IMG/VR virus record: IMGVR_UViG_3300031963_011573
Span: 42,061 to 106,060 of that record
Origin: a virus
Length of the DNA stretch: 64,000 bases
Strand: one strand, 5' to 3'
Under the pieces are notes generated by a model that saw nothing but the letters and a program-made list of their open reading frames with translations, did no database searches and was not told where the DNA came from. Position 1 is the stretch's first letter. Each line of letters starts with the position of its first letter. The position numbers were made by a program, and so were the translations under genes. Positions 39,099 through 63,533 of the stretch are shown one piece after another.

Positions 39099-39611
39099 AT
39101 GTGCGCATTATTTGGTTCATCACGTGACGTTTCATTATTTAGGCACCTTAACAGGGAACTGCTATGGGATGTTATTACACAACAATGTGTATTTTATCAA
39201 CTCAAAACAGCTGAAACAAAGGTAAACATATATGGTGAAGCAGCTGGTGCAAGATTATATGCAGAACCTGTTCTATTAAACGTATTAATTGATAGAGGAG
39301 ATGCTTCCCAACCAGTTGATGATTTTGGTGTGTCTTATGATAGACCAATGACATTTAAATTTTTACGTGATGATTTAGTTGACGCTAATGTATTACCTGA
39401 ATCAGGAGATATAATAATGTGGTATGAATCATATTGGGAAATTAATAATGTAAATGATAATCAACTTGTAGTTGGAAAAGACCCAGCTTACCCATATAAC
39501 ACAAACCCATTAAACCCAGGACTGGAAAATTTTGGCTCCAATTGGTCAATTATTTGCACAGCACATTATGTACCTGCAGATAAAGTTCAAATCTCAAAAG
39601 AAAGAATATAA
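39099..39611 (+). CDS. gp14: Neck protein, T4 gp14-like
   Basis: A 170-residue protein. MCALFGSSRDVSLFRHLNRE starts a conserved helix-strand region; the middle has DRPMTFKFLRDDLVDANVLP and GDIIMWYESYWEINNVNDNQ, and the end has WSIICTAHYVPADKVQI. The MWYESYWEIxxVxDNQ and SIxCTAHxxP blocks are those of T4-like gp14 neck proteins, which connect the portal side to the tail. It follows gp13 as in T4, with the homing endonuclease gene in between. Confidence 0.75.
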   Translation: MCALFGSSRDVSLFRHLNRELLWDVITQQCVFYQLKTAETKVNIYGEAAGARLYAEPVLLNVLIDRGDASQPVDDFGVSYDRPMTFKFLRDDLVDANVLPESGDIIMWYESYWEINNVNDNQLVVGKDPAYPYNTNPLNPGLENFGSNWSIICTAHYVPADKVQISKERI

Positions 39612-40316
39612 ATGGCCGAAAAAATTTCTTCAACCCCAGTATATTTAAACCAATTTAAAAACAGAACTATCATAACTACTGTTGTATCGCAACCAACTGC
39701 TGATATTGATGCTATAACCCAAGCAATAAATCAAATAGCAGGATCTATTACTTTAGTTACACAATCACTTGGGCAAATTTCTCAATCTTTAACAACTCAA
39801 AGTATTCAAATAGATGGTTTATCTTCAACAGCAAATGCTTTAAATGCATCCAAAATATTTGTAAATAAAGAAACCCCATCCGGCTCAATCGATGGTGTAA
39901 ACACAATATATGTTTTAGAACATACTCCAACCTTAGGCAGTGAACATTTATATTTAAATGGTTTGTTAATTGATAGTAGATCATCTACAGACTATTCAAT
40001 TTCGGGTTCAATTATAACGTTTGATCAGCCTTTACTTCCGGGAATGAAATTAAATTGCACATACTATTATGTAGATAACACTCCTGTAAAAGTATTTAAA
40101 GACAAAGAAACTTTATCTGGTGTAATTGATGGGATAAATAAAGTATTTACCCTACAGTATCCCCCAGTAGAGGATAGTGAACATATATATTTGAATGGTT
40201 TGCTTCAAGAAAGTGGGATTAATGGGGATTATCAAGTATCTGACTCAACTATTACATTTAAAGAAGCTCCCCCAACAGATACAAACCTTCGTTGCACCTA
40301 TTACCATTTGTTATAG
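39612..40316 (+). CDS. Virion protein with two tandem beta modules (NGLLQ type)
   Basis: A 234-residue protein. The N-terminal coiled-coil-like part (TAITQAINQIAGSIT-like, about 30-65) is followed by two copies of a roughly 75-residue module: SIDGVNTIYVLEHTPTLGSE then LYLNGLL, and VIDGINKVFTLQYPPVEDSE then IYLNGLLQE. Each ends with a TYYYV/TYYHL strand. The same module caps the fibre at 40726-43308. It immediately follows gp14 and starts 1 base after its stop. A neck- or tail-associated fibre (whisker-like) is possible; unproven. Confidence 0.5.
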   Translation: MAEKISSTPVYLNQFKNRTIITTVVSQPTADIDAITQAINQIAGSITLVTQSLGQISQSLTTQSIQIDGLSSTANALNASKIFVNKETPSGSIDGVNTIYVLEHTPTLGSEHLYLNGLLIDSRSSTDYSISGSIITFDQPLLPGMKLNCTYYYVDNTPVKVFKDKETLSGVIDGINKVFTLQYPPVEDSEHIYLNGLLQESGINGDYQVSDSTITFKEAPPTDTNLRCTYYHLL

Positions 40317-40363
40317 GATAAAAAAATATTTAGATTTTCCTTTATATTTTTAAAAAATCCTGC

Positions 40364-40374
40364 ATACGTATAAT
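40364..40374 (+). promoter_or_regulatory. Candidate phage promoter motif before the DUF5659-like gene
   Basis: ATACGTATAAT lies 16 bases before the ATG at 40391, in a 74-base gap that holds no gene. It is identical to the site at 36501. Confidence 0.4.
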
Positions 40375-40390
40375 CAAACCCAATATTTAG

Positions 40391-40624
40391 ATGAACTCAG
40401 AGAATTTATATTCAACTTCAGATTTATATTTAACAGCATACCTTAAGATCAAGGGGCATAAATTTACAGTAGAAAAAACTACAAAAAAATCTACGTTTAT
40501 TTTCCCATCTAGCCCCGAACTATTATCCGATGTAGATGCATATTTAACGGAAACGGGTTCATGCGAACCTTTGGCTTACACAAATGCCATAAAGAACTTG
40601 AAAAACCTTTTATTTAACAAGTAA
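40391..40624 (+). CDS. Small DUF5659-like protein
   Basis: A 77-residue protein. TSDLYLTAYLKIKGHKF, then a beta strand (STFIFP), DAYLTETGSCEPLAYTNAIK and NLKNLL, the pattern of the DUF5659 family of small phage and bacterial proteins without a known role. It has its own upstream motif and stands alone between structural genes. The downstream 101 bases hold no gene but end with a TTTAA repeat. Confidence 0.6.
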   Translation: MNSENLYSTSDLYLTAYLKIKGHKFTVEKTTKKSTFIFPSSPELLSDVDAYLTETGSCEPLAYTNAIKNLKNLLFNK

Positions 40625-40700
40625 AATTCTATTTCTAGAGTAGTAATTGATGTTACTTAAATGGAGACATTCTGGTTCACCCTTATTCATTTATAAACAA

Positions 40701-40720
40701 TTTAATTTAATTTAATTTAA
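40701..40720 (+). repeat. Four tandem TTTAA units
   Basis: Exactly four copies of TTTAA end 5 bases before the ATG at 40726. The repeat lies inside the leader of the coiled-coil fibre gene and may simply be an A/T-rich leader; length variation there could affect expression. Confidence 0.6.
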
Positions 40721-40725
40721 AACTT

Positions 40726-43308
40726 ATGTCAACTACAAAAATCGTCTTAAATAGACAATCTGACTTAATTTTAGATAATGCACAAATCACCGCTCCAGTT
40801 GGTATTGTTGTTGCAGATATCGATGGTTTACAATCAGCGATTACCTCAATTGACAATAATATCTCAACTGAAGTTTCAAGTGAAGTTTCTTCACGTGTAT
40901 CTGGTGATGCTTCTGTTGCGGCTAGCCTTTCAACTGAGGTTTCTGCTCGTGAAGCTGCAGTATCTACTGAAATTTCAAACCGCGTTGCTGGTGATGAATC
41001 ACTTGCCGCAAACTTATCTACTGAAGTTGCTAACCGTGAAGCAGACGTTGATGCTGAGGAATCTCGCGCAATGGTAGCTGAAACTTCATTACAAAACAAC
41101 ATCGATGCTGAAGCATCTTTACGTGTTGTTGGTGATGAAAGTTTAGAAGCTGCGATGTCAACTGCTGATGCTTCTTTGGATACTAAAGTATCTAATGAAA
41201 CTGCACGTGCAGAATCAGCTGAATCTTCATTGGAAGACCGAATTGATTACATCGTCTCAAACGTTGATCCTGCAGCTTTAGATTCATTAACTGAAATCGT
41301 TGGTGCATTCCAATCTGCTGATGGTGACTTAAACGGTGCTATCACTTCATTGGCAACAGCTGCTGGTGCTTCTTTAAGCGCTGAGGCATCTCGTGCAACA
41401 TCTGCTGAAGCATCTTTAGCTTCTGATTTATCAACTGAAGTTGCTGATAGAGAAGCTGCTATCTCATTAGAGGAAGCCGCTCGTATTTCAGGTGACGCTT
41501 CTGTTGTTGCTGACTTGTCAACTGAAACTGCAAATCGTCAAGCTGCCGTATCGACCGAAACATCTGCAAGAGTTGCTGGTGATAACAGTTTAGAAACTAA
41601 AATTTCTGCTGACTTATCAACTGCTAATGCTTCTATCGAAGGTGCTTTATCAACTGAAATTTCAGAAAGAATCGCTGACGTTGATGCTGAAGAATCAAGA
41701 GCAATGAGTGTTGAGGTTGTATTAAGTGATGAGTTGTCTTCTGAAACATCTGCAAGACAAGCAGAAGATAATTGGTTATCTGGTGAATTATCCATTGCAG
41801 TTTCAGATCTTAATGCAAATGATGAGGCTGAAGCTTCAGCTCGTTTAGCTGCTGATGAATCATTAGCTGCTGATTTGTCAACTGAAACTTCACAGAGAGT
41901 TGAGGATCAAATCTATTATGATGGAATTATATCATCTGAAGTTTCAAATAGAGAATTAGCAGATAATAGTTTATCAACTGAAATTGAAAATGAAGCTTCA
42001 ACACGTTTAGCTGCTGATGAATCATTAGCTTCTGATTTATCAACAGGACTATCAACAGAAGAATCTAACCGTACTGTAGCAATTGATAACGAAGCTTCTA
42101 TTCGTTTATCTGCTGATGAAAGTTTATCAACAAAAATATCAGGTGAAATTTCTCGAGAAGATGATGCTCGTACATCAGCTGATACATCTTTAGCAACATC
42201 AATTACTAACGAAGCTTCTATCCGTTTGGCTGCTGACCAATCTTTGGCAACTGCAGTATCTGCTGAAGCATCTCGTATTGATGTCATCCTTGATGGTTCA
42301 GATGTTGATTTAGATCAATTTGCTGAAATCGTTGATTTCGTTAACGGAATTGATTTAGAGAACGATAACGCATTGTTGAGTGCTGTAACTTCAATTGGTT
42401 TAGATATCGATGCTGAAGAGTCAAGAGCAACATCTGCTGAAGCATCTTTGAACTCTGCATTGTCAACAGAAACTTCCGCAAGAATCGCTGACGTTGACGC
42501 TGAAGAGTCTGCAAGAGTATCTGCAATTGACAACGAAGCTTCTATTCGTTTGGCTGCTGACCAGTCTTTAGCTACTGATCTATCTACTGAAACTTCAGCT
42601 CGTATTGCTGACGTTGATGCTGAAGAATCTCGTGCAATGAGTGCAGAAGCTTCATTAACAGATGCAATCTCTACAGAAATCTCAAGAGCAGAAGCTGCTG
42701 AAGCATCTTTAGCTACTGAATTGTCTGAAGAAGTATCTTACTTGATTGCAAACACTGACTTAACTTCAATTGACTCATTTGCTGAAGTATCAACAGAATT
42801 GTCAAATGAAATCTCTACAAGAGAATCAGCTGACTTCTCACTTGAAGCATATGTTTCAAGTGAAATTGATGGTTTAGCTGCAACTGATGAAGCAACTATT
42901 GAACTTGACACTGTTGGAAACGTAATTCGTTTGAAAGAAACAATTGCTGCTCCTGCAAGTGGAACAAGAACATTCGAAGGTAATGTTGAAGTATCTGGTG
43001 AATTGACAGTTGATGGTGTGAATGTAATGGATGAAATCAGCACAGAAGTATCTCGTGCAGAATCTGCTGAAGCATCTTTAGCATACGATTTCACTAACAT
43101 TTATTTCAGAAATGCTGGTGTAGTTGAAACTGCTAATGGTTCACGTACTGAATTTACATTCAATAACGAACTTAGAGCTGGTTCACAGGCAGTTTACTTG
43201 AATGGTCTATTACAAGATGCTGGTGATTATTCAATCACTACAACATCTGTAACATTCAACGATGCTCCTTTAGCTGGTGATAAAGTTGCTGTTTACGGTA
43301 TGTATTAA
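40726..43308 (+). CDS. Long coiled-coil tail fibre with C-terminal beta module
   Basis: An 860-residue fibre. After a short N-terminal strand segment (TTKIVLNRQSDLILDNAQIT, which may attach to the virion), about 40 to 760 is built from helical units such as AEESRAMSAEASLTDAISTE and SxRLAADESLA, with Asp/Ala/Glu/Ser periodicity typical of a trimeric coiled-coil rod. The C-terminal 90 residues (TANGSRTEFTFNNELRAGSQ, then VYLNGLLQDAGDYSI and FNDAPLAGDKVAVYGMY) form the NGLLQ-type beta module seen twice at 39612. Likely a long side or whisker fibre. Confidence 0.75.
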   Translation: MSTTKIVLNRQSDLILDNAQITAPVGIVVADIDGLQSAITSIDNNISTEVSSEVSSRVSGDASVAASLSTEVSAREAAVSTEISNRVAGDESLAANLSTEVANREADVDAEESRAMVAETSLQNNIDAEASLRVVGDESLEAAMSTADASLDTKVSNETARAESAESSLEDRIDYIVSNVDPAALDSLTEIVGAFQSADGDLNGAITSLATAAGASLSAEASRATSAEASLASDLSTEVADREAAISLEEAARISGDASVVADLSTETANRQAAVSTETSARVAGDNSLETKISADLSTANASIEGALSTEISERIADVDAEESRAMSVEVVLSDELSSETSARQAEDNWLSGELSIAVSDLNANDEAEASARLAADESLAADLSTETSQRVEDQIYYDGIISSEVSNRELADNSLSTEIENEASTRLAADESLASDLSTGLSTEESNRTVAIDNEASIRLSADESLSTKISGEISREDDARTSADTSLATSITNEASIRLAADQSLATAVSAEASRIDVILDGSDVDLDQFAEIVDFVNGIDLENDNALLSAVTSIGLDIDAEESRATSAEASLNSALSTETSARIADVDAEESARVSAIDNEASIRLAADQSLATDLSTETSARIADVDAEESRAMSAEASLTDAISTEISRAEAAEASLATELSEEVSYLIANTDLTSIDSFAEVSTELSNEISTRESADFSLEAYVSSEIDGLAATDEATIELDTVGNVIRLKETIAAPASGTRTFEGNVEVSGELTVDGVNVMDEISTEVSRAESAEASLAYDFTNIYFRNAGVVETANGSRTEFTFNNELRAGSQAVYLNGLLQDAGDYSITTTSVTFNDAPLAGDKVAVYGMY

Positions 43309-43323
43309 TAGTTAAAATTTATG

Positions 43324-43345
43324 GGGAGGATGAAATACTCCTCCC
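43324..43345. other. Hairpin without T-run after the coiled-coil fibre
   Basis: GGGAGGA (43324-43330) and TCCTCCC (43339-43345) pair perfectly around an 8-base loop. Only TATATTTA follows, so termination would be weak; it may act as a mRNA 3'-end stabiliser or attenuator between the fibre and the LRR genes. Confidence 0.4.
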
Positions 43346-43346
43346 T

Positions 43347-43357
43347 ATATTTATACA
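43347..43357 (+). promoter_or_regulatory. Candidate phage promoter motif before the first LRR gene
   Basis: ATATTTATACA follows the hairpin and lies 37 bases before the ATG at 43395, further than usual. One position deviates from the consensus. Confidence 0.3.
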
Positions 43358-43394
43358 AAAACATTTTAATAAACTTTAAAAACAAAATAAAACT

Positions 43395-44108
43395 ATGGCA
43401 ACTTTTATAACATCCAAATCAATAGGAGAAACAATTACAATTAATGTTCCAACATCTACTGGATATTGGAAATATAATCATGATGGAGCAGATTCAAGTG
43501 TATTTGAAAATGGAGAACAAATTATCACAATAACAAATGCAAACGGAGAATTTACTCTGATTTCATGCGATAGTGAAGGTAATGTAAGTGGTGATATAGT
43601 TGATTTAGGTTTAGTTAATAACCAAATAACATCATTTGATGGGACTGGTTTAATTAATCTAACAGGTTTAAATTTAAATTCTAACTTATTAACTTCATTT
43701 GACGGAACAGATTTATCAGCATTAACTTATTTATTTATTTATAATAATCAATTAACTTCATTTAATGGGTCTGGATTATCCACATTAAATGATTTAACTT
43801 TACAAAATAACCAATTAACATCATTTGATGCTACAGGTTTAAATAATCTTCAATTTTTAAATATATCTAATAACCTATTGACAAATCCAACTTCAACTAA
43901 CAATTCACTTCTATCACTTCTAGCAGCAAATGAATTAGCAAACGATTGGGACTCTGGTGAATTTTACACAACTGGAGGAAGAACATCCGCCGGAACTGCA
44001 GATTATGATTACTTGATTGCAAATAATTGGGTAGTTGATGGTGCTGATTTAGTTCCCGTTGTAACAGGTAAATTACGTGTTAAAGGTGTTGGACAGATCA
44101 ATCCATAA
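43395..44108 (+). CDS. Leucine-rich-repeat protein, first of a tandem pair
   Basis: A 237-residue protein. A short beta N-terminus (TFITSKSIGETITINVPTST, GYWKYNHDG) precedes about four LRR units of 21 residues of the type NNQLTSFDGTGLxxLxxLxLxxN (about 70-170). Then come a helical LAANELANDWDSGEFYTTGG segment and a C-terminal KLRVKGVGQ strand. The repeat form resembles LRRs of surface and adhesin proteins of Bacteroidota. It follows the long fibre gene, so an adhesin or fibre-tip role is likely. LRR proteins are rarely seen among phage structural genes; the ligand is unknown. Confidence 0.7.
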   Translation: MATFITSKSIGETITINVPTSTGYWKYNHDGADSSVFENGEQIITITNANGEFTLISCDSEGNVSGDIVDLGLVNNQITSFDGTGLINLTGLNLNSNLLTSFDGTDLSALTYLFIYNNQLTSFNGSGLSTLNDLTLQNNQLTSFDATGLNNLQFLNISNNLLTNPTSTNNSLLSLLAANELANDWDSGEFYTTGGRTSAGTADYDYLIANNWVVDGADLVPVVTGKLRVKGVGQINP

Positions 44109-44143
44109 CATAAAATTATAAACTTTAAAAACGAAAAAAAATT

Positions 44144-44857
44144 ATGGCAACTTTTATAACATCCAAATCAGTTGGAGAAACAATTTCAATTTATGCTGAA
44201 ACATCTACTGGATATTGGAAATACAACCACGATGGTACAGATTCAAGCGTATTTGATCAAAATAATGGTGCTCAAACCATAACAGTAGCAAATGCAAATG
44301 GAGAATTTACACTCATTCCATGTTTATCTGATGGTACACCAAGTGGTGATATAACATTATTAGGATTAGGTGGTAACCAACTAACTTCATTTGATGGAAC
44401 AGGTTTAACATCATTGAATGAATTAGGTTTAGGTGACAACCAATTAACATCTTTTGATGCAACCGATTTAACATCTGTTACTAATTTAGTGGTAAGTAGT
44501 AATTTATTAATATCAATTGATGTATCAAGTTTAACCAACTTAAATATTTTAACTTTACAAAATAACCAATTAACATCACTTGACATCACAGGCTTACTAA
44601 ACCTTCAATATTTGAGTGTTGAGAATAACCCATTTACTAACTCAACTTTAACAAACAATTCACTTTTAGCAAAATTAGCAGCAAATGAATTGGCAAATGA
44701 TTGGGATACTGGTGAACTTTACACATCAGGTGGAAGAACATCTGCTGGAACCACAGACTACGATTATTTAATTGCAAATAATTGGGAGATTTTTGGTGCT
44801 GATTTGATTCCAACAGGAACAGGCAAACTACGTGTTAAAGGTATCGGACAATTGTAA
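44144..44857 (+). CDS. Leucine-rich-repeat protein, second of a tandem pair
   Basis: A 237-residue protein of the same layout and length as 43395 (shared ITSKSxGETI opening, GYWKYNHDGxDSSVF, the SLLAxLAANELANDWD and GGRTSAGTxDYDYLIANNW blocks, and KLRVKGxGQ ending). The LRR core varies more between copies than the flanks, for instance TSLNELGLGDNQLTSFDATD and TSVTNLVVSSNLLISIDVSS here. This suggests a recent duplication followed by divergence of the binding face. It ends just before a bidirectional terminator that faces the minus-strand genes. Confidence 0.7.
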   Translation: MATFITSKSVGETISIYAETSTGYWKYNHDGTDSSVFDQNNGAQTITVANANGEFTLIPCLSDGTPSGDITLLGLGGNQLTSFDGTGLTSLNELGLGDNQLTSFDATDLTSVTNLVVSSNLLISIDVSSLTNLNILTLQNNQLTSLDITGLLNLQYLSVENNPFTNSTLTNNSLLAKLAANELANDWDTGELYTSGGRTSAGTTDYDYLIANNWEIFGADLIPTGTGKLRVKGIGQL

Positions 44858-44883
44858 TCCAATATATTTAACCAAACACAACA

Positions 44884-44910
44884 AAAGGGACTCAAAAGGT
44901 CCCTTTTTTT
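44884..44910. terminator. Bidirectional terminator between convergent genes
   Basis: AAAGGGAC (44884-44891) pairs with GTCCCTTT (44899-44906); four extra T follow. The A-rich left arm gives a T-rich tail on the opposite strand, so the hairpin should stop both the LRR transcript (+) and the glycosyltransferase transcript (-), which converge here. Confidence 0.85.
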
Positions 44911-44927
44911 ATTCCTATAGACAACAT

Positions 44928-46112
44928 TTATTTATATAGGTTAGTAGTAGGATCATATATCAAATCCTTATTTCCACCATTAAATACACCCTCAATCAAA
45001 CGATCATACGTTTCAATAACGTCTGTATTTTCAATATGGTAGCGTTGTAACACAACATCATTGCGTTGATTATATCCGTCAATATCTTTATCGTGTTCTG
45101 TTAATATATGATTTAACATTTTAGCGGCCTCAACTGTATCTGAACCCTCGTAATAGTAACCCAAATCTTTACACATTGGAGCATTATGTAAAACTGGATA
45201 CCCTAAATAAGCGGCATCCAAATACAAATAATTTAATGGATTTAACAACTGGTGGCAAATCAACACATCCAAATGTTGAGTTAACATGTAAGCTGTTTGA
45301 TAACGTGATTCAGCCGATATCTTACCTTCCCTAAACAAATCAAATGTTTGAATTATGGACATAAACTCTCGATGTTTTGAAACTACCGTTCCATTTGTAA
45401 TACGAAGTTTTTCAATGTGTTTTCGGCCTGTAATAGTGCGATATGATTCCTCAGCAATCATAGCTGGAATCAAACAAAACTTAACAATGTTGAGGTTTGG
45501 CTCCATGATACCAATTATCTTTTTTTCTTTGGTATTGTCGTACTGCCAATCTTTTGTGTATTTTCCTGCTTTGAACCCTTTATGTATTTCTCTAACCGCC
45601 TCAAATAAAAACTTTTCAGACCATATAAAAGGAACCGCAAAGGCATTTGTACGATATAGTGTTTTATACAAACCAGAATTTACCTCATCTTGTTGTGGAA
45701 CATACCATATTTCATCATATTGACGTTCATATTGAAACTTCTTATCCTCACTTGGACGAAACAAAATATTTTCCATATGGATCACATAGTTGTTTCCACA
45801 TTTATAAGATACAACTTTTTTATTATCTCCAGAACGTTTAAATGTTTCAAGTTGATAGTCAAATATTTGTGCACCCATTACAATCAACAGATCCATCTCC
45901 AAAAACTTATCGTTAAAGTAGTGAATGTCTATTCCATCAAGATATGAAGGACGTTCTGTAAAATCTACATTCATAGAATTTAAAATACAAACATCGTATT
46001 TTTTCTTTGAATTTTTTAGCAGGTGTACAAGCATCAAAACGTTTTGTTTGATACCGTTTGTCCAAATGGATTCTTTGTTGTCTTTTAAGCCGAGTGTGAT
46101 TCCTATTTTCAT
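44928..46112 (-). CDS. DUF2827-like glycosyltransferase
   Basis: A 394-residue protein on the minus strand. MKIGITLGLKDNKESIWTNG opens the first Rossmann-like half; residues 80-180 contain GNNYVIHMENILF and EIWYVPQQDEVNSGLYKTLY. The second half has KKIIGIMEPNLNIVKFCLIP and LDAAYLGYPVLHNAPMCKDL, features of the DUF2827 family of predicted GT-B glycosyltransferases. A sugar-modifying role on DNA, virion or cell surface is possible; donor and acceptor are not evident. Its start overlaps the J-domain gene by 4 bases, so the two form a small operon. Confidence 0.7.
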   Translation of the reverse strand: MKIGITLGLKDNKESIWTNGIKQNVLMLVHLLKNSKKKYDVCILNSMNVDFTERPSYLDGIDIHYFNDKFLEMDLLIVMGAQIFDYQLETFKRSGDNKKVVSYKCGNNYVIHMENILFRPSEDKKFQYERQYDEIWYVPQQDEVNSGLYKTLYRTNAFAVPFIWSEKFLFEAVREIHKGFKAGKYTKDWQYDNTKEKKIIGIMEPNLNIVKFCLIPAMIAEESYRTITGRKHIEKLRITNGTVVSKHREFMSIIQTFDLFREGKISAESRYQTAYMLTQHLDVLICHQLLNPLNYLYLDAAYLGYPVLHNAPMCKDLGYYYEGSDTVEAAKMLNHILTEHDKDIDGYNQRNDVVLQRYHIENTDVIETYDRLIEGVFNGGNKDLIYDPTTNLYK

Positions 46113-46669
46113 ATACTGTTTCCGTGTTTATTTACAAATTGATCTACTAGTTTCTGTTTTTCCTCATCTGTTGCGGCATGCGCATATAACCATATGAATG
46201 AATTTTCAATATTTTTAAGCTTGTCCTTTTTTTCGTTTATACGTATTTTTAAAATATCTTTATCTTCACCATCTATTGAGTGAGATATATTAAGTTGTGA
46301 GCATATTTCATATAAAGTATACAAATCAAATTCCTCAGATGCCGTAGTAGCTTTAACATACAGTTCAGTATGCTCATCTGTTTTTGCTTTATCTGGATGA
46401 GTGATTTTAGCAATTTCCCTATACAACTTTTTAACTTTTTCTCTAGTGGACTTGTCCACTGTGTTTGGGTCTATTTTTTTCTTTGGTAGTTGTTCTTGAG
46501 GGGTTTGAGGGGGAGGTGGAGGTGTCTCACCACGTGCCTCTCTTATTTTATTTAAAAATTCCTCCTTGTTAGAGTCTATAACCTCGTTTTTGTATTCTTC
46601 ATCCAACAATAGAAAACTATATTCTTGCAACAATTTTTTTACTTCAAGTTGTTCTAGTCGTTTACTCAT
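46109..46669 (-). CDS. J-domain (DnaJ-like) protein
   Basis: A 186-residue protein on the minus strand. The N-terminal 50 residues are helical; a Pro-rich stretch (about 49-60) follows. The J-domain is at about 78-125: VKKLYREIAKITHPDKAKTD with the essential HPD at 91-93, then TELYVKATTASEEFDLYTLY. J-domains stimulate the ATPase of host DnaK (Hsp70). A C-terminal helical region completes the protein. It could redirect host chaperones towards head or tail assembly or towards the neighbouring glycosyltransferase; partner not shown. Confidence 0.75.
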   Translation of the reverse strand: MSKRLEQLEVKKLLQEYSFLLLDEEYKNEVIDSNKEEFLNKIREARGETPPPPPQTPQEQLPKKKIDPNTVDKSTREKVKKLYREIAKITHPDKAKTDEHTELYVKATTASEEFDLYTLYEICSQLNISHSIDGEDKDILKIRINEKKDKLKNIENSFIWLYAHAATDEEKQKLVDQFVNKHGNSI

Positions 46670-46708: not shown

Positions 46709-47971
46709 ATGCCAAGAACAAGAAAACCAAACCCAAAATCTCAACGTCAAATTTCAAACGAACAAATTGAGCCGTATGTTAACCCTGAAAATGGAGAAAC
46801 TATAGGTAATCCAAACATTCCCTCTAATTTTGATCAATTTACAGCAAATGAACAAAATGGAATTGAATTTAACCGCTCAGAAAAACTTTCATTTAGGGGA
46901 GATACTACAAAACCATTCACTATAGGATTTGAAGATATTGATGAGGCAATCCACTACTATTTTTCAAATGTGATTCGCCCTTCAGTTACACAAAACAACA
47001 TGCGAATCCCTGTTCCCATAATATATGGTTCACCTGAACGTTGGAAATCTACACAAAAGGATGGATATTACAAAGACAAGAATGGTGCAATTATGGCTCC
47101 TCTTATCATGTTCAAACGAGATAGTATAGATAAGAATCGCTCTTTGGGTAATAAAATGGATGCAAATTCTCCAAACTTGTACACAACATGGAAAAAAGTA
47201 TATGATCCAAAAAATGCATATTCAAATTTTAACACCTTAAACAACCGTAAACCAGTAGAGCAATTTATAGTAAATGTAATCCCAGATTATGTTACTATAT
47301 CATATACTTGTGCTATACAAACATATTATGTGTCTCAATTAAACAAAATAGTTGAGGCTATCAACTATGCTTCCGACACATATTGGGGAGAAAAAGATCG
47401 TTTCAAATTCTATGCTACAATTAGCTCATTTGATACTCCAATTGAAATAACAGATAATTCAAACAGAATAGCTAAAGCAACATTTACCTTAACTATTAAA
47501 GGATACGTCATACCTGACAGTATTCAAAAACAATTAACATCTATCAAAAAATATAATAGTAAAGCCCAAGTTATAATTGAAATGGAAGCAGTTAGTTCGC
47601 TAGATGATCCAAAACCAAAACCACTTAAAACCACATCCCCTATATTTATAGACAACCAAAAACCAGTAATAAACTATATCTCTCAAGACGTGCTAGTATA
47701 TTTAAACACCAACATACAAAAACTTGGAACATATGTAAATTCAACAACAGTAACATTTAATTCTGGTTGGATTCAAGCTCCAAATAGTTTACCACCAACT
47801 TCTATCGTAAACTTTACATTCTTTGTAAACGGTACATTGGTAGAAAGTGCAGCTATAGTTTCTTTTACCCAAAATGCAGGCATTTCAACTCTTGTAATTG
47901 ACCCTACCGAATTAGGCTACTCAATCTCCCCTTCAGATGAAATAGTAGCTATTGGGAAATTTAGTAATTGA
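46709..47971 (+). CDS. Putative tail completion/sheath stabiliser protein (T4 gp15-like)
   Basis: A 420-residue protein. Its motifs, in order, are VPIIYGSPERWKSTQKDGYY (about 94-113), LIMFKRDSIDKNRSLGNKMD, VNVIPDYVTISYTCAIQTYY then VSQLNKIVEAINYASDTYWG, and a C-terminal beta region with KATFTLTIKGYVIP. The VPIxYGSxERW motif, the ISY strand and the VEAI helix recall gp15-type tail terminators, which cap the tail for head joining. The assignment is tentative. It is the first plus-strand gene after the minus-strand island and the fibre cluster starts behind it. Confidence 0.45.
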   Translation: MPRTRKPNPKSQRQISNEQIEPYVNPENGETIGNPNIPSNFDQFTANEQNGIEFNRSEKLSFRGDTTKPFTIGFEDIDEAIHYYFSNVIRPSVTQNNMRIPVPIIYGSPERWKSTQKDGYYKDKNGAIMAPLIMFKRDSIDKNRSLGNKMDANSPNLYTTWKKVYDPKNAYSNFNTLNNRKPVEQFIVNVIPDYVTISYTCAIQTYYVSQLNKIVEAINYASDTYWGEKDRFKFYATISSFDTPIEITDNSNRIAKATFTLTIKGYVIPDSIQKQLTSIKKYNSKAQVIIEMEAVSSLDDPKPKPLKTTSPIFIDNQKPVINYISQDVLVYLNTNIQKLGTYVNSTTVTFNSGWIQAPNSLPPTSIVNFTFFVNGTLVESAAIVSFTQNAGISTLVIDPTELGYSISPSDEIVAIGKFSN

Positions 47972-52771: not shown

Positions 52772-53470
52772 ATGAGTTTTTCGTTTAGCCCAAAAATAGT
52801 TACAGATGGTTTAGTGTTGTATTTAGATGCAGCAAACACTCGTTCATATCCTGGAAGTGGTACTACTTGGAGTGATTTATCACGTAGTGGAAATAATGGA
52901 ACATTAGTAAATGGACCGACGTTTAATGGTGCAAATGGTGGAAGTATAGTGTTTGATGGAACAAATGATTATGTTGCAACTAATTTAGGAACATTAAGAA
53001 GTTTAACAGGGACTAGAAGTACTTTAAATATTTGGTTTAGAACTGTAAATAGCAGTACTAGACAAGTGTTATTAGCTGATTGGAATTCAGCTGGTGCTCT
53101 AGAAACTGCTCGTTTAGAAATAAGTGGTTTTAATATATCACCAAATAAAGTTGGGGGAACTATTAATGGGATTTCCAACTCAACCCCAGTACAATCAACA
53201 ACTTCCATTCAAAATAACACGTGGTATTGGGTAACAATACTCTATAATGGTACTAATACTCAACTTTACTTAAATGGACAACTAGAACAAAGTTTAGCAA
53301 CAACTGAAAGAGGAAGTGATAGTACAGGCCATGTTGCTATTGGAAGAGCTGGTGATTTTAATGGATTATATTGGAATGGAAACATTGCTAATATTCAAAT
53401 CTACAACCGTGCCCTTTCCGCAACAGAAATCCTACAAAACTATAACGCAACTAAAAACAGATATTTATAA
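52772..53470 (+). CDS. LamG/concanavalin-like adhesin, first of a pair
   Basis: A 232-residue protein. DGLVLYLDAANTRSYPGSGT, SDLSRSGNNGTLVNGPTFN and SIVFDGTNDYVAT are the N-terminal strands of a LamG_3-type jelly roll; GNIANIQIYNRALSATEILQ and NYNATKNRYL are the characteristic ending. Such domains bind glycans and are common as phage fibre adhesins. No glycosidase residues are recognisable. A second copy at 53731 shares the layout. The stop codon is part of the ATATTTATAA motif before the next gene. Confidence 0.8.
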   Translation: MSFSFSPKIVTDGLVLYLDAANTRSYPGSGTTWSDLSRSGNNGTLVNGPTFNGANGGSIVFDGTNDYVATNLGTLRSLTGTRSTLNIWFRTVNSSTRQVLLADWNSAGALETARLEISGFNISPNKVGGTINGISNSTPVQSTTSIQNNTWYWVTILYNGTNTQLYLNGQLEQSLATTERGSDSTGHVAIGRAGDFNGLYWNGNIANIQIYNRALSATEILQNYNATKNRYL

Positions 53471-53473: not shown

Positions 53474-53734
53474 ATGGAAACACAATACCCAAACAGAGAA
53501 TTCATGATATTCAACGTATCAGAATTACCACAAATTGATTTCACCCAAGTACATGAAACATCGGTAGACACAGTACGCAAATCCATCGATGAAACTCGTA
53601 CATTTGTAAAATGGGATAGTGAAACACCTTCAAGTGTTGCTGCTTTAACAACTGCAGAAGGTCCTTACACGTACGAGGAAATATTAACTATTTTAGCGGG
53701 TCCTGAGTGGACAAGTAATGAGCCAATGCTATGA
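53474..53734 (+). CDS. Small hypothetical protein between LamG genes
   Basis: An 86-residue acidic alpha/beta protein: REFMIFNVSELPQIDFTQV, TSVDTVRKSIDETRTFVKWD and TAEGPYTYEEILTILAGPEW. Proteins with this TVRxSxDxxxTFVKxD ... EGPYTxxE pattern are common next to LamG adhesins in large phages. It might be a fibre-assembly factor, but this is not established. It overlaps the next LamG gene by 4 bases (ATGA). Confidence 0.5.
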   Translation: METQYPNREFMIFNVSELPQIDFTQVHETSVDTVRKSIDETRTFVKWDSETPSSVAALTTAEGPYTYEEILTILAGPEWTSNEPML

Positions 53735-54429
53735 GTACAGTACAAGGAAGTTGGAGAGGACCAAACATAGTACGAGATGGTTTAGTTTTATACCTAGATG
53801 CTGGGTCACCAAATTCATTTCCTTTAGTTAATCAAAGTACAACGTGGAAAGATATTTCTGGGAATGCAAATAATGGTACCTTAACAAATGGTCCTACGTT
53901 TAATTCTGCAAATGGAGGTGGAATAGTATTAGATGGAGTTAATGATTATATTGATTCAACTTTTGTTAATCCGTTTGCAGAAACAGTTATGGTATGGGTT
54001 AAATCTAATACAACCAATTGGAATGAAAATGGTTGGATTTCATCATCTAGGAGACAAAATGGTCACATAATACACCCAAATATTTCAACCAAAACAGTTG
54101 CATTCTATGTTTCTAATAGTAGTGGTGGGGCTGTAATAATTGGTTCTACAACATTAACAGATATTACCCTTCCACATTTGTATTGTTTTACAACAAATGG
54201 ATCAAATTCCCACAAAATATACATTGATGATACTTTTATATCTGAAAATACAACATCTATAACTAGAACTTTAACTCCAACATCACAAACATGGTATATA
54301 GGCAGAGATGATACAACTTCTCGATATGGAAATGGCGCATTCTATAATGTATTACGATACAACCGCGCCCTCTCCTCCCAAGAAATCCTCCAAAACTTTA
54401 ATGCAACCCGAGCACGTTTCGGAATTTAA
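53731..54429 (+). CDS. LamG/concanavalin-like adhesin, second of a pair
   Basis: A 232-residue protein with the same layout as 52772 (DGLVLYLDAGSPNSF, DISGNANNGTLTNGPTFNSA, VLDGVNDYID, and the ending NVLRYNRALSSQEILQNFNA). The middle differs strongly: here VMVWVKSNTTNWNENGWISS replaces the first copy's LNIWFRTVNSSTRQVLLADW. Conserved ends with divergent centre suggest different glycan specificities. The start overlaps the 53474 stop by 4 bases. Confidence 0.8.
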   Translation: MSTVQGSWRGPNIVRDGLVLYLDAGSPNSFPLVNQSTTWKDISGNANNGTLTNGPTFNSANGGGIVLDGVNDYIDSTFVNPFAETVMVWVKSNTTNWNENGWISSSRRQNGHIIHPNISTKTVAFYVSNSSGGAVIIGSTTLTDITLPHLYCFTTNGSNSHKIYIDDTFISENTTSITRTLTPTSQTWYIGRDDTTSRYGNGAFYNVLRYNRALSSQEILQNFNATRARFGI

Positions 54430-60264: not shown

Positions 60265-60918
60265 ATGAACATTACTTACATTTATTTAATAGAATTATCT
60301 TCTGGTGAGGTTTATATTGGTAAAACAGTTAATCCAAAATCAAGAAAATATGGCCATATTTTAAAATATGGGAAAGATATTAAATATTGGGTAATAGATG
60401 AAATTTCCTCAATCGATTCTAAAAATTGGAAACCTCTTGAATCCTATTGGATAGAACAATTTAGACAATGGGGTTTTAAAATAGCAAATAAAAATAATGG
60501 AGGAGGCGGCCCATCAAAAAAATCCCCAGAATCTATTAGAAAAATGGTAAGTAAACTTAAAAAAAATATCTACCAATATGATTTAAAAGGAAATTTGATT
60601 AAAACATGGGATAGTATAAAAGAAGCTAAAATAGCAACTGGAGTAGATATTGATGGTTGTTTAAAAGGTAAAACAAAAATTGCAGGAAATTCAATTTGGA
60701 AATATAACCTAGAAACAAATTTTTCCTATCATTTAACCCCAAAACAAGGAAATACAGTATACCAGTATTCATTAGATAACAAATTTGTTAAAATTTGGAA
60801 AAGTGCTAATGAAGCTGAAAAATTTTTAAATAATAAAATAGGAGATAACATAGCAGCATGTTGTAGAGGAAAACAAAAAACAGCTTATGGGTATCTATGG
60901 ACTTATAAAATAAATTAA
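60265..60918 (+). CDS. GIY-YIG homing endonuclease with NUMOD1-like repeats
   Basis: A 217-residue free-standing homing endonuclease. GIY-YIG domain: ITYIYLIELSSGEVYIGKT (3-21), catalytic Glu in WKPLESYWIEQFR (about 61-64). Then come a NNGGGGPSKKSPESIRKM linker and two DNA-recognition repeats: YQYDLKGNLIKTWDSIKEA and YQYSLDNKFVKIWKSANEA, each followed by a GCLKGK/ACCRGK motif. It lies between a small coiled-coil gene and the tail sheath, and starts behind its own promoter-like motif. It probably spreads between related phages at this intergenic site. Confidence 0.85.
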   Translation: MNITYIYLIELSSGEVYIGKTVNPKSRKYGHILKYGKDIKYWVIDEISSIDSKNWKPLESYWIEQFRQWGFKIANKNNGGGGPSKKSPESIRKMVSKLKKNIYQYDLKGNLIKTWDSIKEAKIATGVDIDGCLKGKTKIAGNSIWKYNLETNFSYHLTPKQGNTVYQYSLDNKFVKIWKSANEAEKFLNNKIGDNIAACCRGKQKTAYGYLWTYKIN

Positions 60919-62978: not shown

Positions 62979-63533
62979 ATGGCAAATTTTTCAATTTCCC
63001 CAGGGGTAACAATAAGTGAAATAGACAACACGTTTTTAACAGGCCAACCAGTACAAGCTGGTGCAGCTATTATAGGCCCTACAGTTAAAGGACCTGTAAA
63101 TGTTCCTACATTAGTTACATCATATTCTGATTATCAAAATTATTTTGGTGATACATTTACAAGTGGTGGTTTAGCTAATTCTTATTTTACTTCATTGGCA
63201 GCTTACAATTATTTTAATTATGGTGGTACTTCATTGCTTGTAACACGTGTAGTTAGTGGTTCTTATACCTCTGCAACTTCATCTATAGTAACAAATGATA
63301 TTTTATATGTTACTGGAGGATATGTAGATCCTGGATATGTAGGTGATAATATTTTTGAACTTGAAACCATTTCTGAAGGTGTAATCATGAACAATAATAT
63401 TACAGGAAGTGCAGGTGCATTACTTTCAGGAACTAAAGATAATGTAAGATTTGAAATCATCACCCCAAACACATCTTCAGGTACATTTACAGTATTGATA
63501 GAAGAGGAGATGATAGAACAAACAAGAAAATAA
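62979..63533 (+). CDS. Second tail sheath gene, N-terminal part before a frameshift
   Basis: A 184-codon frame that starts ANFSISPGVTISEIDNTFLT, then PVQAGAAIIGPTVKGPVNVP, a clear paralogue of the sheath at 60932. It follows the paralogue up to FTVLI near 63500 and then reads EEEMIEQTRK-stop, which has no match. The sheath sequence continues in another frame from 63500 (RRGDDRTNKKIILETW). One base is missing at about 63497-63500 compared with the paralogue (ATT-AGA expected, AT-AGA seen). Either the gene is broken, or this is a sequencing or assembly error. It is not a typical slippery site. Confidence 0.8.
   Translation: MANFSISPGVTISEIDNTFLTGQPVQAGAAIIGPTVKGPVNVPTLVTSYSDYQNYFGDTFTSGGLANSYFTSLAAYNYFNYGGTSLLVTRVVSGSYTSATSSIVTNDILYVTGGYVDPGYVGDNIFELETISEGVIMNNNITGSAGALLSGTKDNVRFEIITPNTSSGTFTVLIEEEMIEQTRK

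Follow-up and report, generated by a model that had tools for sequence, protein, structure and literature searches.

A swappable binding-module slot with tandem LRR genes in a T4-like phage: candidate peptide-tagged accessory adhesins

In branched phage receptor-binding systems (K1-5, SP6 and G7C; the KP32 and KP34 viruses), variable binding proteins are encoded at conserved synteny and share a short peptide with a proposed docking role; in K1-5, SP6 and KP32-type phages, conserved peptides of 7 to 29 residues have been proposed to dock secondary receptor-binding proteins, which gives short docking peptides a precedent (PMC6872550). The locus described here resembles them in having variable, putatively docked binding proteins that share a short peptide at a syntenic site, and belongs, as a variant, among modular phage receptor-binding or adhesin systems. 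It differs from the branched systems in that its peptide stands at either terminus or in front of a CBM, its modules are LRR, DUF285, CBM and unclassified folds rather than depolymerases, and its slot may be empty. The Ig-like domains of T4 Hoc and the BACON, PKD and Ig-like adhesins of gut phages (PMC13370021) are likewise dispensable modular binding domains, often with Bacteroidota hosts; here, by contrast, LRR, DUF285 and CBM modules carry a common terminal tag and are found at one locus.

The VLRs of jawless vertebrates and the repebodies provide a parallel in design, with a constant LRR scaffold on which the residues of the concave beta-sheet vary. The proteins considered here have 21-residue repeats and are encoded by phages, and the likeness is one of convergent design, not kinship. 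Internalin J-type proteins share the 21-residue repeat length, and InlJ (3bz5) is recovered both by profile (E=7.3e-24) and by fold, although no cell-surface anchoring was seen in the phage LRR proteins. Searches of the literature outside subscription papers returned no account of phage LRR adhesins like these.

The window, the whole stretch of DNA analysed, comprises 64,000 nucleotides and runs from position 42061 to the last position, 106060, of the IMG/VR virus record IMGVR_UViG_3300031963_011573 (106,060 bp). It belongs to a T4-like bacterial virus whose closest isolate is Flavobacterium phage immuto (capsid 58%, portal 60% identity). Genes for a T4-type portal, terminase, head-tail adaptor and major head protein lie upstream of the LRR pair and the tail sheath gene lies downstream, in agreement with the structural-region location given in the original prediction. 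Shine-Dalgarno motifs precede just 3 of 47 gene starts, and the leaders are A-rich. A-rich leaders without Shine-Dalgarno motifs are usual in Bacteroidota; together with the nearest isolate, this makes a Bacteroidota host likely. The features of the locus are collected in Table 1.

Table 1. Position and character of the features at and around the LRR gene pair (window coordinates).
Feature	Position	Strand	Description
Left backbone flank	39099..39611	+	adjoins right flank in immuto
Virion/fibre-like cassette protein	39612..40316	+	234 aa; PHROG tail fibre and virion structural matches; kept in relatives
Conserved cassette protein	40391..40624	+	77 aa; present in relatives
Coiled-coil fibre-like repetitive protein	40726..43308	+	860 aa; upstream border of the slot
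Hairpin	43324..43345	.	between coiled-coil gene and LRR1; near-identical one in L068
LRR1	43395..44108	+	237 aa; N-terminal beta domain, LRR core, C-cap, flexible tail with tag
KLRVKG tag of LRR1	44070..44087	+	near C-terminus, followed by VGQINP
LRR2	44144..44857	+	237 aa; architecture of LRR1, different concave residues
KLRVKG tag of LRR2	44825..44842	+	near C-terminus, followed by IGQL
Terminator-like hairpin	44883..44907	.	usable in either direction; convergent end of the slot; like ones in L067, L068, L069 and L072
DUF2827 protein	44928..46112	-	394 aa; convergent with the slot
J-domain-like protein	46109..46669	-	186 aa; overlaps DUF2827 start; DnaJ 23.4 bits, under the Pfam cut-off
Right backbone flank	46709..47971	+	orthologue next to left flank in immuto

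Other features of the structural region were recorded in passing. Two 232-aa ORFs (52772-53470 and 53731-54429) each have matches in immuto genes 220 and 221, which are neighbours annotated as 'structural protein', and are thus a second duplicated pair of virion genes. An ORF resembling a GIY-YIG/NUMOD homing endonuclease (60265-60918) stands immediately 5' of the tail sheath gene, and a 184-aa ORF (62979-63533) is like the N-terminal part of a tail sheath, with 52% identity to that of immuto. The related contig of L030 contains two long sheath-like ORFs.

Both ORFs of the LRR pair pass the Pfam cut-offs for LRR_4 (E=1.8e-9 and 8.8e-9) and LRR_8 (4.8e-7 and 1.5e-6), so their repeats are not due to chance, and the prediction of two 237-residue LRR ORFs at 43395-44857 is correct in coordinates, lengths and domain type. 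In LRR1, the beta domain spans residues 1-66, the core (67-164) consists of five 21-residue repeats, the last of them partial, and the C-cap covers residues 165-220. Its predicted structure (pLDDT 82) shows the beta N-domain, an LRR solenoid and the C-cap, with the tag in a low-confidence tail. A fold search with this model returned designed LRR proteins, repebodies and VLRs as the closest solved structures.

LRR1 and LRR2 are 69% identical overall, and their divergence is not uniform. Identity is 76% over the N-terminal 66 residues and 78% over the C-terminal part but drops to 59% in the LRR core; the proposed pattern of shared ends around a differing core is therefore seen in the core, with ends that are similar rather than the same. 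The predicted core excess of amino-acid changes was found (41% of core sites differ versus 23% elsewhere, p=0.006) and is focused on concave sites. With the concave sites defined as four strand positions per repeat, assigned on the 21-residue register, 15 of 20 predicted concave sites differ, compared with 22 of 71 sites of the LRR scaffold and 35 of 144 outside the LRRs. The concave sites stand apart from the rest (p=2.5e-5), whereas scaffold and outside do not differ from each other (p=0.33). What the core has in excess therefore lies on the predicted binding face.

The original prediction attributed the pair to duplication with selection on that face. Simple recent tandem duplication was rejected on two grounds, a dS of 0.65 between the genes (raised to 0.82 in the core) and a conflict between trees. 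In the N-domain tree (67 alignment columns), LRR1 falls near L042 and LRR2 near G002, and none of 200 bootstrap trees (0%) unites the two; in the C-cap tree (44 columns), they are grouped in 94% of bootstraps. The ancestry of the pair is thus likely to be mosaic, as far as these trees go. Pairwise dN/dS between the two genes is 0.37 in the LRR core, 0.40 in the N-domain and 0.20 in the C-terminal part, with no region above 1 and no indication of positive selection. In contigs almost identical to the window, 0-2 differences were counted over 7-13 kb, the LRR genes do not vary and the LRR1 protein is unchanged; among these contigs there is no sign of rapid within-strain diversification.

Neither LRR1 nor the DUF2827 protein has a match among 50,697 phage records (isolates, with records very near the window possibly excluded). 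Relatives of LRR1 were found at 17 loci among viral contigs, several of them near-copies. On the cellular side, one Flavobacteriaceae MAG contig matches the family and is perhaps itself of phage origin; a cellular donor of the LRR unit was considered and set aside, this contig being the sole match. The unit of N-domain, LRRs and C-cap occurs singly in genes of 222 to 687 aa and also in fused form, with as many as six units joined in a protein of 1569 aa. Across 17 proteins with 190 repeats in all, only the four strand positions of each repeat are hypervariable: the concave positions 21, 2, 4 and 5 average 3.2 bits of entropy and the others 0.71, a contrast that remains when it is considered that the repeat search pattern fixes many scaffold positions, because the six unconstrained non-concave positions reach just ~1.2 bits. 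Among 165 repeat pairs within one protein whose scaffolds are separated by no more than two base changes in 51, 140 differ at 3-4 of the 4 concave residues. The window repeats are older, with scaffolds more diverged than in these near-identical pairs of the relatives. Serine codons in the repeats are position-specific (TCA at 10, TCT at 17, AGT at 18), which suggests that the scaffold DNA either descends from a common source or has been homogenised. An LRR protein at L040 4198-6897 has four consecutive near-identical repeats (LTSLDLTDNQLTEFDGTGLSG), which read as evidence of recent block duplication.

Most LRR families vary at concave positions, and such variation alone is therefore no proof of diversifying selection. 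Of the predicted selection on a binding face, the concentration of variation stands, both in the window pair and in the strong concave change between the relatives' near-identical-scaffold repeats; the dN/dS values give no positive selection.

The LRR pair lies in a ~7-kb cassette (39612-46669) that is absent from immuto, as the orthologues of its two flanking genes adjoin there. Its slot is defined as the space between the coiled-coil fibre-like gene and the convergent DUF2827 gene, and the order coiled-coil, slot, DUF2827, J-domain-like is found in many of 35 DUF2827 loci, some of them near-copies, and the cassette recurs in phages whose backbones have diverged. The slots of relatives contain between zero and three genes, of types that include LRR proteins (with as many as six units fused), DUF285/BspA-type repeats, CBM5/12 mini-proteins and small unknowns; in the window it contains the two LRR genes. 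Different binding modules are exchanged at this one syntenic site. Among near relatives with backbone genes 70-90% identical to the window, L067 (170-aa gene 90%, DUF2827 95%) has genes for a DUF285 protein and for a CBM protein of 61 aa in the slot, and L072 (170-aa gene 88%, DUF2827 88%) has an empty slot. The slot is also empty in L069, where ~70 bp containing a terminator-like hairpin separate the coiled-coil gene from DUF2827. The cassette as a whole appears to move between phages, because the DUF2827 protein of L068 is 94% identical to that of the window although its 170-, 420- and 381-aa backbone genes are strongly diverged (33%, 26% and 43%). The original prediction called LRRs unusual in phage structural modules; this may hold in general, but the slot of this lineage routinely has such modules.

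Within the cassette, the enzyme-like DUF2827 gene is the best conserved (78% mean column identity across nine phages), and it is retained when the slot has no occupant; L087-L089 have two copies of it side by side. It has no relative in the PDB. Assignment as a glycosyltransferase was rejected, the model being too poor (pLDDT 50) and the fold matches giving no usable assignment. The J-domain-like protein is kept together with DUF2827 in relatives, at 33-78% identity.

The slot proteins have a short peptide in common. The pattern KLR[VI]KG, with K or R allowed at the first position, is present in 21 of 59 slot ORFs versus 1 of 304 other ORFs (p=1.6e-17, kinship among the loci being ignored), and the single tagged ORF outside the slot is a displaced LRR gene at a locus with rearranged order. 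Its carriers are LRR, DUF285, CBM5/12 and unclassified proteins. In most LRR proteins the tag is C-terminal or stands right before a terminal CBM5/12-like domain; in the DUF285 proteins, in proteins of 137, 146, 175 and 511 aa, in one LRR protein and in the CBM mini-proteins of 61 and 64 aa, it lies within the first dozen residues, the 61-aa protein having the variant KTSIKG. The residues around it are mostly Gly/Ser/Thr-rich. Several slot proteins are untagged, and several loci, many of them arranged otherwise, are without any tag. Because the peptide occurs at either end of unrelated folds and in mostly Gly/Ser/Thr-rich surroundings, it is best read as a putative attachment tag. When two degenerate DNA patterns of the tag were compared with 2.9 million viral contigs, the matches were contigs of this family and L063; the latter was discarded as a carrier outside the family, since it has no tagged ORF above 100 aa and looks like a chance match. 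The N-domain and the tag occur together only in viral contigs and the Flavobacteriaceae MAG contig. The coiled-coil protein ends in GDKVAVYGMY, which has a loose likeness to the tag pattern in the form K-hydrophobic-x-V-x-G; strand mimicry is a possible reading of this end.

We consider it fairly probable that LRR1 and LRR2 are accessory virion adhesins, docked through the tag, that bind with a concave face and are encoded in a module-swapping slot. Each would form a small LRR solenoid, with an N-terminal beta domain, five 21-residue repeats and a C-cap, in which the concave beta-sheet would be the ligand-contact face. At the flexible end, the short basic peptide GKLRVKG would dock the protein on a conserved partner in the virion; the likeliest candidate is the coiled-coil fibre-like product of the gene directly upstream, which is favoured by its adjacency. 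The slot would accept any tagged binding module that its lineage has gained, whether LRR, DUF285/BspA-type, CBM5/12 or small unknown, or none, and specificity would shift through module swapping, through gain or loss of repeats or units and through change at the four strand positions per repeat. Candidate ligands are proteins or glycans on the surface of Bacteroidota, and glycans of particles or mucus; the CBM and LRR modules would fit adhesion to a host surface or to environmental glycans. More tentatively, the six-residue peptide may be a universal plug that, at either protein end, fixes unrelated binding folds to one virion site, with LRR occupants diversifying like natural repebodies by repeat shuffling and scaffold homogenisation, diversity being maintained at the four concave residues of each repeat.

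The location next to a fibre-like gene within the structural module, the concentration of variation on the concave face and the module swapping typical of receptor-binding proteins (PMC6872550) would also suit main host-receptor-binding proteins, that is, tips of tail fibres whose diversity stems from an arms race with the receptor of the host. This has a modest chance at best: the slots of the close relatives L072 and L069 are empty, so that infection seems not to need the slot, and the module has other fibre-like genes. Dispensability is at the same time in keeping with binding to non-host surfaces (algal or animal glycans, mucus, particles, chitin), by which the phage would be held near its hosts in the manner of gut-phage Ig-like and BACON modules; the CBM5/12 modules bear the same tag, and Ig-like adhesins offer a precedent (PMC13370021). 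Such binding is a ligand variant of the accessory-adhesin explanation and, as the specific role of the slot, is unlikely.

Two further readings are far less probable. The resemblance of 21-residue LRRs and DUF285 repeats to bacterial surface proteins such as internalin J could indicate that the slot proteins, instead of belonging to the virion, are released from the infected cell or displayed on its surface, as in superinfection exclusion or community binding, and that the tag serves in sorting or processing. No secretion signal was seen, the tag stands at either terminus and the genes sit among structural genes, which makes this very improbable. A diversity-generating retroelement that writes the concave variation would account for the many NNT triplets (AAT, TAT, GAT, AGT) among the variable codons. 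The frequent CAA, GAG and GAA codons, however, misfit adenine-only change of an AAY template, the near-identical contigs have no extra variation in the LRR gene, and no reverse transcriptase (PF00078) was found in six family records, all possibly incomplete; there is hardly any likelihood left for this mechanism.

The most interesting part of the locus lies outside the LRR coordinates from which the analysis started, in the swappable binding-module slot and the common peptide tag. If the accessory-adhesin explanation is true, the slot would be a natural plug-in system of adhesins in phages with probable Bacteroidota hosts, and the six-residue tag would allow virion-displayed binders to be predicted among unknown phage genes. 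The LRR occupants would form a phage-encoded binding repertoire directly comparable with VLRs and repebodies, and the way in which such phages alter their binding would become testable through one tag and one locus.
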